Origin: Herminiimonas sp.
GTDB taxonomy: Bacteria; Pseudomonadota; Gammaproteobacteria; Burkholderiales; Burkholderiaceae_D
Length of the DNA stretch: 64,000 bases
Assembly (NCBI GenBank): GCA_028292665.1
Contig: JAQGLW010000189.1
Location: forward strand, 1-64,000
Reading direction: 5' to 3'
Shown here in pieces: positions 11,317-43,105 of the stretch (positions within the stretch are counted from its first letter, which is position 1; each line of letters starts with the position of its first letter). The translations under genes were made by a program, and so were the position numbers. The notes under the pieces are model-generated. The model saw only the letters and a program-made list of their open reading frames with translations, made no database searches and was not told the DNA's origin.

Positions 11317-11693
11317 TTCGTGTCGGCTTTATTACGCGCCGACATTTTCATTGAATGTCGACAGTTTGTTCGAATGTAAACCGGATCAGCTTTGCTTACT
11401 CTCGTGTCTGGTTTGCGTTTAACGTTTAGACAATGCATTTCTGTCGTCTGAAAATTTTGCTTCTGCCGACGTATGTTGTCGCTGTGCGGGTATGTTAATT
11501 TGATCTCTTGATACAAGACTGATTTCAAAACAGCGCTGAAATTCATGATGTATTGCTGCAAGGATAATCTTTTCAGGTTTATGCTCTTTTATCGCTGATT
11601 CTATTTGGATTGATTACACGATAATTATCAATTATCAATTATCCAATCGTCGATATATAACAGAGCCGGAATATACCCAATAAATAATGACAA
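11317..11693. other. Gene-free AT-rich spacer between icd and csp
   Basis: About 375 nt with no convincing gene; a minus-strand frame at 11226-11561 has no coding character. It contains a small hairpin CGACATT..AATGTCG near 11340-11360 and three perfect tandem copies of AATTATC at 11623-11643. Confidence 0.4.
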
Positions 11694-11721
11694 AAAAATC
11701 CCCGCAATTGCGGGGATTTTT
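11694..11721 (-). terminator. Intrinsic terminator of csp
   Basis: Perfect palindrome AAAAATCCCCGC-AATT-GCGGGGATTTTT. On the minus strand it is followed by further T residues and lies 21 nt after the csp stop. Confidence 0.92.
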
Positions 11722-11742
11722 ACAACGCTGCTTAATTTACAA

Positions 11743-11946
11743 TTAAGGAGCTTGAATATTTGAAGCTTGCTTGCCTTTGGGGCCTTGCGTGACTTCGAAT
11801 TGGACTTTTTGACCTTCTTTCAGGGTCTTGAAGCCATTCATTTGGATTGCGGAGAAGTGCGCGAACAAATCTTCGCCACCGTCGTCCGGAGTGATAAAGC
11901 CAAAACCTTTGGAGTCATTGAACCACTTGACGGTACCTGTTGCCAT
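11743..11946 (-). CDS. Cold-shock-domain protein (CspA family)
   Basis: 67 residues forming a single OB-fold cold-shock domain. The RNP1 motif KGFGFITPD and RNP2 motif DLFAHFSAI are intact, with [14 protein letters not shown] at the start. Such proteins bind single-stranded RNA and melt structure at low temperature; non-cold-induced paralogues exist, so induction cannot be read from the protein. Its place next to clpS-clpA recalls cspD-clpS-clpA in E. coli. A long structured leader (11947 to about 12070) and a strong terminator suggest regulation at the mRNA level. Confidence 0.93.
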
Positions 11947-12070
11947 AAAAGCGTCTTTCTAATATAGACTAATCACACGAGCCGTAAAAGCAAGAAGCCT
12001 CGCGTAACGCTGCCCCCTCTTAAAACTTGCTCACTTCATATCAATAAGTGCCTACCGACACTTATCAATA
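11947..12070 (-). promoter_or_regulatory. Long 5' leader of the csp mRNA
   Basis: From the predicted start near 12070 the csp transcript would carry about 124 nt before the ATG. A hairpin ATAAGTG/CACTTAT (12044-12050 with 12059-12065) forms near its 5' end. Long leaders that change fold with temperature are known for cspA mRNAs; that behaviour here is inference. Confidence 0.45.
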
Positions 12071-40186: not shown

Positions 40187-41647
40187 ATGAAACCATTTGA
40201 ACCGAATTTTCAGACCCTGGCCATCGCCCGCGACGTTCTATTGACGCCGTTCGGACTCGATGAGTCCAAATTGATCAAAGCGTTGGGCACCATGTTTACG
40301 CATCGCGTCGATTACGCCGACCTGTATTTCCAGTTCACCAAGAATGAAGGCTGGAGCCTGGAAGAAGGCATCGTGAAGACCGGAAGTTTTTCGATCGATC
40401 AGGGCGTCGGCGTACGCGCGGTGTCGGGCGACAAGACCGCATTTTCTTATTCGGATGAAATTTCCGAGCGTGCGCTGCATGAAGCCGCTGCCGCCACGCG
40501 CACCATCGCGCGCCAAGGCGCGGGCAAGGTCAAGGTCGCTTCTGCGATACAGCCGGCCGGCGGTCGCGCGCTGTACTTGACGAACGATCCGCTTGCTTCG
40601 CTGGATGCAACGCAGAAAGTGAAACTGCTGGAAAAAGTCGAGCGCATTGCGCGCGCCAAAGACCCGCGCGTGGTGCAGGTGATGGCGGGACTTGCGGGAG
40701 AATACGACGTCGTGCTGGTAGTGCGCAGCGACGGCGTGATCGCGGCCGACATCCGGCCGCTGGTGCGCGTGTCCGTTACCGTCATTGCAGAACAGAACGG
40801 CCGCCGCGAAATGGGTTCCAGCGGCGGCGGCGGACGCTATAGCTACGACTACTTCAGCGATGAATTGCTCGAAACATACGCAAGCGAAGCGGTCGCCGCC
40901 GCGCTCGTCAACCTGGATGCGCGGCCTGCGCCTGCCGGTCCGATGACCGTGGTGCTTGGACCGGGCTGGCCCGGCGTCCTGCTGCACGAGGCCATCGGCC
41001 ACGGTCTGGAAGGCGACTTCAACCGGAAGGGATCGAGCACATTCTCCGGCCGCATCGGCGAACGTGTCGCGGCCAAAGGCGTAACAGTCGTCGACGACGG
41101 CACCATCGCCGATCGCCGCGGCTCGCTCAACATGGATGACGAAGGCAACGCGACGCAATGCACGACGCTGATCGAAGACGGCATCCTGAAGGGTTATATC
41201 CAGGATACGATGAATGCGCGCCTGATGAAGATGCCGGTGACCGGCAATGCAAGGCGTGAATCGTTTGCCCACCTGCCGATGCCGCGGATGACCAATACCT
41301 ACATGCTGGGCGGCGACAAGGATCCCGCCGAAATCCTGGCGTCGGTCAAGAACGGCCTGTATGCAGTCAATTTCGGCGGCGGCCAGGTCGATATCACCAA
41401 CGGCAAATTCGTGTTTTCCGCCAGCGAGGCGTACATGATCGAAGACGGCAAGGTCACTTATCCGGTCAAGGGCGCAACGCTGATCGGCAACGGTCCCGAT
41501 GTGTTGAATCGGGTATCGATGATCGGCAACGACATGCGGCTCGATTCCGGGGTCGGCGTCTGCGGCAAGGAAGGGCAGAGCGTGCCGGTCGGCGTCGGTC
41601 AGCCGACCTTGCGCATCGACGGCGTGACGGTAGGCGGTACCGCGTAA
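40187..41647 (+). CDS. tldD: Metalloprotease TldD
   Basis: 486 residues, matching E. coli TldD (481). With its partner TldE (PmbA, not in the window) it forms a protease that processes modified peptides such as microcin B17 and degrades unfolded peptides. The zinc motif is [16 protein letters not shown] (HExxxH). [12 protein letters not shown]-like sequence near 65 reads [20 protein letters not shown]. The conserved tail [25 protein letters not shown] is present. It follows the nitrilase gene by about 105 nt and may also have its own promoter (TACAAT at 40123-40128). Confidence 0.96.
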
Positions 41648-41765
41648 CTGCGATGCAGTCATTCCTCTGATGACGGGAGTGACGGCGCAATTTGAACGCG
41701 GCGCTTGCCAAATGCATTGATTTATTGCACTATTGCTTTAAATTCGCTTCAAGCCCGGTAAAACC

Positions 41766-41837
41766 ATGACCTCCGCACGCTTTCACTTTTATTTTTACTT
41801 TAGCTATTCCAGCCCAACGGCGGTGGAAAAGCGGTAA
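41766..41837 (+). CDS. Phe/Tyr-rich leader peptide of aroG
   Basis: 23 codons, MTSARFHFYFYFSYSSPTAV then EKR, stop. Residues 6-14 (FHFYFYFSY) contain four Phe and three Tyr codons, the end products of the pathway begun by the next gene, a DAHP synthase. The layout matches ribosome-dependent attenuators such as pheL. Segment 1 is CCTCCGC (41770-41776), just before the control codons. Segment 2 is GGCGGTGG (41819-41826), next to the stop. Segment 3 is ACCGCCA (41888-41894) and segment 4 is TGGCGGT (41899-41905). Stalling at the aromatic codons would free 2 to pair with 3 and block the 3:4 terminator. The start has only a weak Shine-Dalgarno. Confidence 0.75.
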   Translation: MTSARFHFYFYFSYSSPTAVEKR

Positions 41838-41883
41838 GCTCACGTAAAAGCGACACGATAAACGAGACAAACCGAATTTCTTG

Positions 41884-41910
41884 AAAAACCGCCAGCGATG
41901 GCGGTTTTTT
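41884..41910 (+). terminator. Attenuator terminator before aroG
   Basis: 11-bp perfect stem AAAAACCGCCA/TGGCGGTTTTT around the loop GCGA, ending in TTTTTT. It lies 46 nt after the leader-peptide stop and 55 nt before the aroG ATG. Confidence 0.88.
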
Positions 41911-41965
41911 CATTTCAGGGTTTAAAAATTTTTCACAGATTTAAAATTTTTTGATTGGAGAAAAC

Positions 41966-43033
41966 ATGCCGCGCACCGACGACCTACGGATCCGAGAAAT
42001 GAAAGAACTGATACCGCCTTCGCACCTGATTCGCGAATTCCCCTGCTCGGAAAAAGTGGCCGATACGACCGCGGCCGCGCGCACCGCGCTGCACCGCATC
42101 CTGCACGGACAGGACGATCGCGTCATGGTCGTGATCGGTCCCTGCTCGATTCACGATACCAAGGCTGCGATGGAGTATGCACACCGGCTGGTGAAGGAAC
42201 GCAAGCGTTTTGCCGGCGAGCTGGAAATCGTGATGCGCGTTTATTTCGAGAAGCCGCGCACGACCGTCGGCTGGAAAGGGCTGATCAACGACCCGCATAT
42301 GGACAACAGTTTCCGCATCAACGACGGATTGCGGATGGCGCGCGAACTGCTGATGAATATCAATGAACTGGGCCTGCCTGCCGGCACCGAATTTCTCGAC
42401 GTGATCAGTCCGCAATACGTTGCCGATCTGATCAGCTGGGGCGCGATCGGCGCACGCACCACCGAGTCGCAAGTGCATCGCGAACTCGCATCGGGACTGT
42501 CGTGCCCGGTCGGTTTCAAGAACGGCACCGACGGCAACATCAAAATCGCGGTCGATGCGATCAAGGCGGCATCGCAACCGCACCATTTTCTGTCGGTGAC
42601 CAAGGGCGGCCATTCGGCCATCGTGTCCACCAGCGGCAATGAAGACTGCCACATCATCCTGCGCGGCGGCAAGGCGCCGAACTACGATGCGGCCAGCGTC
42701 GATGCAGCCTGCAAGGACATCGCCGCCAGCGGCCTCGCGTCGCGCCTGATGATCGATGCATCGCATGCCAACAGTTCGAAAAAGCCGGAGAATCAGGTGC
42801 CGGTATGCGCCGACATCGGCCGGCAAATCGCCGCCGGCGATACGCGTATCGTCGGCGTGATGGTCGAGTCGCACCTGGTTGCCGGACGTCAGGATCTGAT
42901 CCCCGGCAAGGAACTGACTTATGGTCAGTCGGTCACCGACGGCTGTATCGGCTGGGATGAGAGCATCAGTGTGCTGGAAGGATTGGCGGCGGCAGTCAGG
43001 CAGCGCCGCCACGTCAAGGACCCGGATGCCTGA
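41966..43033 (+). CDS. aroG: 3-deoxy-7-phosphoheptulonate synthase (DAHP synthase, class I)
   Basis: 355 residues from the ATG at 41966 (GGAG 5 nt upstream); an upstream in-frame TTG is rejected. First enzyme of the shikimate pathway, condensing PEP and erythrose-4-phosphate. Motifs: VVIGPCSIHDTKAAMEYA, RVYFEKPRTTVGWKGLINDP, IGARTTESQVHRELASGLS, KNGTDGN and DASHANSSKKPENQ. Isozyme type (Phe- or Tyr-sensitive) cannot be read with certainty, but the Phe/Tyr leader upstream fits either. The gene symbol is by family, not by allosteric evidence. A long palindrome lies downstream. Confidence 0.94.
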   Translation: MPRTDDLRIREMKELIPPSHLIREFPCSEKVADTTAAARTALHRILHGQDDRVMVVIGPCSIHDTKAAMEYAHRLVKERKRFAGELEIVMRVYFEKPRTTVGWKGLINDPHMDNSFRINDGLRMARELLMNINELGLPAGTEFLDVISPQYVADLISWGAIGARTTESQVHRELASGLSCPVGFKNGTDGNIKIAVDAIKAASQPHHFLSVTKGGHSAIVSTSGNEDCHIILRGGKAPNYDAASVDAACKDIAASGLASRLMIDASHANSSKKPENQVPVCADIGRQIAAGDTRIVGVMVESHLVAGRQDLIPGKELTYGQSVTDGCIGWDESISVLEGLAAAVRQRRHVKDPDA

Positions 43034-43051: not shown

Positions 43052-43105
43052 GTCCCGGGATCATGGGCGGATAACGTTTCGTTCATCCGCCCATGATCCC
43101 GGGAC
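43052..43105. repeat. Long palindrome after aroG
   Basis: Perfect 21-bp arms (43052-43072 and 43085-43105, beginning GTCCCGGGATCATGGGCGG) with an inner AACG/CGTT and a TTT loop, nearly 25 bp in all. It lies between convergent genes and has no T run. It could act as a two-way transcription barrier or mRNA 3' stabiliser, or be a mobile palindrome. Confidence 0.75.

Follow-up and report, generated by a model that had tools for sequence, protein, structure and literature searches.

The aroG gene of Herminiimonas sp. is preceded by an element that, to judge from its sequence, is very probably a ribosome-mediated transcription attenuator of this gene. Its parts, their conservation, the alternative pairing obtained in folding and the joint loss of leader and terminator in a relative all point to this reading. 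An attenuator had already been proposed by the initial annotation, and the conservation and joint loss in relatives support this proposal. The element lies in a window of 64,000 nucleotides (the whole stretch of DNA that was analysed), downstream of a gene encoding TldD (NF008006). The following features are considered here:

41705–41733, + strand: promoter-like pair (TTGCCA at 41705–41710, 17 nt, CACTAT at 41728–41733)
41766–41837, + strand: leader ORF of 23 codons, peptide MTSARFHFYFYFSYSSPTAVEKR, stop codon TAA at 41835–41837, kept in relatives
41781–41807, + strand: putative control codons FHFYFYFSY, seven aromatic (Phe/Tyr) codons in nine, assigned with the codon statistics of relatives
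41803–41832, + strand: hairpin 1:2, arms 41803–41814 (5' arm, the end of the run) and 41819–41832, 632 of 780 cells paired
41819–41824, + strand: strand 2, GGCGGT, 5' arm of the antiterminator
41884–41910, + strand: intrinsic terminator, arms 41884–41894 and 41899–41909, T run 41905–41910
41888–41893, + strand: strand 3, ACCGCC, common to antiterminator and terminator
41966–43033, + strand: aroG, encoding 3-deoxy-7-phosphoheptulonate (DAHP) synthase (NF006723, 598 bits, cut-off 568)

Four features by which an attenuator can be recognised were found: a short ORF carrying a run of codons for end products of the pathway, an intrinsic terminator between this ORF and the structural gene, an antiterminator that excludes the terminator and begins directly past the control codons, and a target gene belonging to the pathway of the amino acids that would be sensed (aroG, DAHP synthase). 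Both the 23-codon ORF with seven aromatic codons in nine and the 11-bp terminator 46 nt after it lie where the initial annotation had placed them. The terminator consists of a perfect 11-bp stem with a 4-nt loop, and it begins 46 nt past the leader stop codon. It is absent from the list given by a simple terminator scan of the region, because its T run forms part of the stem. Among the 1147 short ORFs of the 64-kb window (12–60 aa, distinct stops, both strands), the leader alone reaches seven aromatic residues in nine, the runners-up having five. An ORF with seven in nine arose in 11 of 5000 dinucleotide shuffles of the spacer 41648–41965.

Ahead of the leader, a promoter-like pair was found in 72 of 79 listed relatives (defined below), usually 22–40 nt before the ATG and with a spacing of 17 or 18, by a pattern tuned by eye on these same sequences. 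The −35 is TTGCCA in 60 of these 72 and the −10 is mostly TATAGT, CACTAT or TATAAA; a generic promoter scan of 41400–42200 found none. No clear Shine-Dalgarno sequence was seen ahead of the leader ATG. In several other families, a −10-like box ends some 6–12 nt before the leader ATG (L087, L092, L093, L095, L098, L116, L126, L133 and L160) and no Shine-Dalgarno sequence is visible in these leaders; such a short distance suggests that their leader mRNA may be almost leaderless. The aroG gene itself is preceded by GGAG at 41957–41960, and it is the only place in the genome that matches this type of AroG with E ≤ 0.001, in a search to which class II DAHP synthase is invisible. Beyond it, 18 nt past its stop codon, lies a perfect 21-bp inverted repeat (arms 43052–43072 and 43085–43105, 12-nt loop) with no T run behind it.

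Relatives were obtained by an AroG scan of GTDB genomes, from which the best 80 loci among the matches listed were taken and one (L064, which begins inside aroG) was dropped. The 79 others belong mostly to Oxalobacteraceae genera and MAGs, with 12 from Burkholderia, Paraburkholderia and Caballeronia. A plasmid collection considered as a further source of relatives held mostly other AroG types and was left out. The alignment of the tldD-aroG spacer across relatives, which had been proposed as a check on the attenuator, bears it out: 78 of the 79 loci among the matches listed carry, upstream of aroG, an aromatic-rich short ORF and then a hairpin, CCGCC...GGCGG, together with a T run. Leader and terminator are both absent from the only exception, a 2.2-Mb MAG (L034) whose aroG begins about 36 nt after tldD. 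A strict rule (five of nine residues aromatic, a perfect stem of at least 6, a T run and a complementary strand downstream of the run) is satisfied in 77 of the 79 listed loci. The combination of ORF and terminator was obtained in 1 of 6240 shuffles, the full rule with the antiterminator strand in none of these 6240 and in none of 208 opposite strands.

The pairing of the RNA was scored in alignment A2, whose 78 rows were fitted to the covariance model R1; there, the terminator is paired in 766 of 780 cells over 10 inner-to-outer pairs. The antiterminator described at the outset, an exact complement between GGCGGT at 41819–41824 and ACCGCC at 41888–41893, is likewise conserved (456 of 468 cells paired). 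The first strand then chosen, CCTCCGC at 41770–41776, can indeed pair with GCGGTGG at 41820–41826 with one T-T mismatch, but this helix is not conserved: 328 of 546 cells pair in A2, the comparison with shuffles (64.0% of cells paired versus 63.6%) shows no excess, and it was rejected. The segment 41803–41814 fits better as first strand. The resulting hairpin 1:2, for which the 12 Burkholderiaceae rows of A2 show no aligned counterpart, would sequester strand 2 when the run is free of ribosomes.

Taken jointly in A2, hairpins 1:2 and 3:4 beat all of 500 shuffles in percentage paired, covariation score and number of cells changed on both sides, but just 461 of the 500 when pairs with two-sided changes are counted. 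When A2 is slid by −1, two-sided changed cells amount to 33 versus 17 for the structure, and 52.5% of the cells are paired versus 90.1%. In both percentage paired and score, the extended antiterminator ranks above some 99% of its shuffles. In alignment A3, which contains 41 diverse sequences, two-sided changes occur at either end of the core of the terminator (A-T in 37 and G-C in 4; A-T in 29, G-C in 7 and T-A in 1), and the edge pair of the antiterminator is T-A in 19 and C-G in 4, with neither pair in 18 of the 41. Covariation support is limited to the edges because the pairing core is nearly invariant. A near-invariant five-base core is what one would expect of a strand 3 that has to pair with strand 2 and with strand 4 alike, invariance not being the same thing as covariation.

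Folding was carried out through strand 3 with the ribosome-covered positions held unpaired, a procedure whose footprint and choice of a single stall site are crude. For the leader of the window, the probability of pairing between strands 2 and 3 is 0.12 without ribosome, 0.95–0.98 when the codon in the A site is Tyr11, Phe12 or Tyr14, and 0 with the ribosome at the stop codon; hairpin 1:2 has a pairing probability of 0.76–0.88 when ribosome-free. With the same crude masking, the 2:3 probability exceeds 0.5 in 51 of the 79 listed leaders when stalled, 12 when ribosome-free and 26 at the stop codon, and an excess of at least 0.3 over the stop-codon value was obtained for the stalled ribosome in 36 of the 79. 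Among 20 more distant leaders, from which L100 was left out as having no recognised strand 2, a probability above 0.5 was obtained in 9 stalled, 10 ribosome-free and 9 at the stop codon, with the 0.3 excess in 6. At equilibrium, the terminator fold is favoured in every calculation with the full-length RNA, which means that antitermination would have to be kinetic.

The following model for the control of aroG can be proposed. Transcription would start upstream of the leader, at about 41740 as judged from the conserved promoter-like pair, and a ribosome would translate the leader behind the RNA polymerase. If charged tRNA-Phe and tRNA-Tyr are plentiful, the ribosome would reach the stop codon at 41835 and cover strand 2; strand 3 would then enter the terminator and transcription would stop ahead of aroG. 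If aromatic aminoacyl-tRNAs are scarce, the ribosome would stall within FHFYFYFSY and break hairpin 1:2, so that strands 2 and 3 would pair before the last terminator arm exists, leading to readthrough into aroG. In the absence of translation, hairpin 1:2 would form and the terminator would win. From these features we infer both termination in the cell and the sensing of charged tRNA-Phe and tRNA-Tyr, to which Trp codons would add in some relatives.

As 43 of the 79 listed loci have tldD upstream in the same orientation, the hairpin could merely serve as a plain terminator of tldD or of another upstream gene, aroG being transcribed from a promoter downstream of the hairpin, where the spacer 41911–41965 is AT-rich. 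This is highly improbable, however, since the element stays in all 36 listed loci without a tldD match, the longest upstream ORF being on the opposite strand in 24 of these 36 (longest-ORF heuristic, flanks of at most 1.5 kb). Moreover, the distance from the T run to aroG, with a median of 41 nt in the 79 listed loci, falls to 18 nt in the shortest and to 18–32 nt in the 12 shortest, leaving no room for a promoter there, whereas the conserved promoter-like pair sits ahead of the leader; and L034 keeps tldD yet has neither terminator nor leader. A role of the hairpin as tldD's own terminator was thus rejected on this joint loss, the short distances to aroG and the loci without tldD. That the ORF serves to produce a small protein with a function of its own, the terminator being incidental, can be given even less credit, in spite of the conserved, constant-size ORF and of the residues SYSSPxAVEKR found in many Oxalobacteraceae. 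The length, stop and first residues of the ORF vary, no such protein occurs in Pfam or NCBIfam, and the terminator and the complementary strand go with the ORF throughout the 78 relatives. Furthermore, downstream of the run, 9 of the 78 leaders, as read here, change frame (L020, L035, L036, L048, L058, L065, L066, L073 and L075), so that the tail is read in other frames while the DNA stays: the GGCGG word is retained in 77 of 78 aligned rows. These data indicate that it is the codons that are preserved in the run and the RNA in the tail, the peptide tail being unconstrained.

Within the attenuator reading, the element might answer only or mainly to Phe, the Tyr and Trp codons being incidental, a possibility that deserves attention but is rather less favoured than the sensing of both Phe and Tyr. 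Phe codons outnumber Tyr codons in the 79 listed loci (on average 4.7 versus 2.2 per leader). In addition, TTT accounts for 275 of 372 Phe codons in the listed leaders versus 76 of 510 in the compared part of aroG, an excess that might mark the Phe codons as slow; it possibly reflects slow decoding, or else a run held unpaired. In Corynebacterium glutamicum, the leader aroR contains Phe-Tyr-Phe and yet, according to a review, only Phe limitation mattered (PMC11802643). Against this, Tyr is present in 77 and Trp in 26 of the 79 leaders among the matches listed, including Trp in 11 of the 12 from Burkholderiaceae. The run ends in ...FYFSY/N/H/D-S... in Oxalobacteraceae leaders and in FYFYFFW(Y/H)L in Burkholderiaceae. 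Codon changes were compared in 59 distinct leaders (from 67) aligned on the last Phe, whose invariance is partly due to construction as the anchor pattern itself demands TTT or TTC. In these 59 leaders, the Tyr codon preceding the last Phe varies mainly at its third position (pairwise differences of 0.07 at position 1, 0.10 at position 2 and 0.36 at position 3), the remaining codons of the run being more mixed, and this Tyr is kept with synonymous change in 54 of the 59.

In the family, the covariance model R1 matched 188 of 195 genomes, including that of the window, where a search with E up to 10 returned the element, its antisense terminator at E 0.0147 and, from E 1.3 upwards, four further places. 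In the order, a leader and a terminator were recognised by reading in 24 of 69 AroG upstream stretches (18 by the strict rule), belonging to 12 families; in the other orders of the class, this was the case for 2 of 60 stretches, both from family f60. A second covariance model, R2, built from 41 sequences (23 of them taken from genomes of the order sample), matched 65 of the 250 genomes of the order, at one place each and in 15 families. Of the 52 matches checked, 51 immediately precede a gene of the AroG type (32 of 33 in genomes with known AroG places and 19 of 20 fetched places, G117 being common to both). Some R2 matches have weak leaders (three aromatic residues in nine in L237, unclear in L222), and two loci of the order sample, L137 and L142, harbor a G+C-rich terminator without aromatic ORF, which counts against the attenuator reading. 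An apparent second copy in G283 (L156 and L157, on G283:C1) was dismissed: both copies are near the ends of one 5.55-Mb contig, precede the same aroG and differ by one base in the leader, which looks like a contig-end overlap of an unclosed circular contig and not like a second element. In family f27, G117 and its relatives (L240 and L241–L246; G117:C20:48229-48373) carry an aromatic leader (...YFYWYRSS or FNSYFYWYRTPAAPRDGC) and a GCCGCC...GGCGGC terminator. The genes downstream are not aroG and encode an uncharacterised protein of about 180–204 aa and a small membrane-like protein, for which no Pfam or NCBIfam family was found above cut-off.

The pheA (pheL) and pheST (pheM) attenuators of enterics combine a Phe-rich leader ORF with alternative antiterminator and terminator folds. 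The element shares with them the Phe-rich leader ORF and the alternative folds but differs by its target gene. It does not belong to the Rfam family Phe_leader (RF01859), as it scores 20.0 bits versus a gathering score of 55. In the window and in six relatives, no Rfam 15 family reaches its gathering score over the element; a match to RNAI (33.7 bits versus 47, E 0.00019) was set aside as a terminator-like resemblance. Elsewhere in the window, a cspA thermoregulator leader of Rfam is found at 11691–12065 on the − strand (110.6 bits).

For E. coli aroF-tyrA, an attenuation hypothesis was reportedly put forward by Camakaris et al. in 1980, and the likeness to the element is that attenuation was proposed for a DAHP synthase operon. 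This attenuation is tabulated as sensing tRNA-Tyr (PMC2659441), whereas the DAHP synthase genes of E. coli are elsewhere reported to be under TyrR/TrpR control (PMC5343134). A closer precedent is the aroR-aroF attenuator of C. glutamicum (Neshat et al. 2014), which is reported to have a leader with Phe-Tyr-Phe before a DAHP synthase gene (PMC11802643, PMC4046766) and in which ribosomes that stall when Phe is limiting reportedly increase readthrough (PMC11802643). As far as these descriptions go, the likeness resides in an aromatic leader peptide upstream of a DAHP synthase gene; C. glutamicum is however an actinobacterium and three aromatic residues are named, versus seven in nine here. Likewise, the uORFC-13-1 motif located before aroF (24 representatives from Acholeplasma and unassigned environmental sequences; PMC8632094) is a proposed uORF with at least one Phe and a terminator. 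It thus resembles the element as a Phe-containing uORF and terminator before a DAHP synthase gene, but differs by the origin of its representatives and by its requirement of at least one Phe only. Among the open-access full texts covered by the literature search, no description of an aroG attenuator in Burkholderiales was found. The initial annotation, for which no aroG attenuator was known from betaproteobacteria, needs one correction here: given the reported precedent of C. glutamicum, this kind of control is not new for a DAHP synthase. The kind of control is already known, and what is absent from Rfam and from the open-access papers searched is this conserved Burkholderiales element.

Aromatic amino acid synthesis has its gate at DAHP synthase. 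TyrR and TrpR are stated to be absent outside gammaproteobacteria (PMC5343134); on that account, the control of the DAHP synthase step in betaproteobacteria was left open, and a conserved attenuator would answer this question. The element could readily be proposed as an Rfam family, and deletion of the leader provides a handle for strain engineering, as with aroR in C. glutamicum (PMC10006044). A broader proposal, somewhat less likely than not, is that a single ancestral attenuator family of the order Burkholderiales (as defined by GTDB, roughly the betaproteobacteria), with a GGCGG box common to strands 2 and 4, might read Phe, Tyr and partly Trp, replace TyrR/TrpR repression in at least 14 families and also have been placed before a second gene in f27. 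If this is true, the whole aromatic pathway would be gauged at its entry step.
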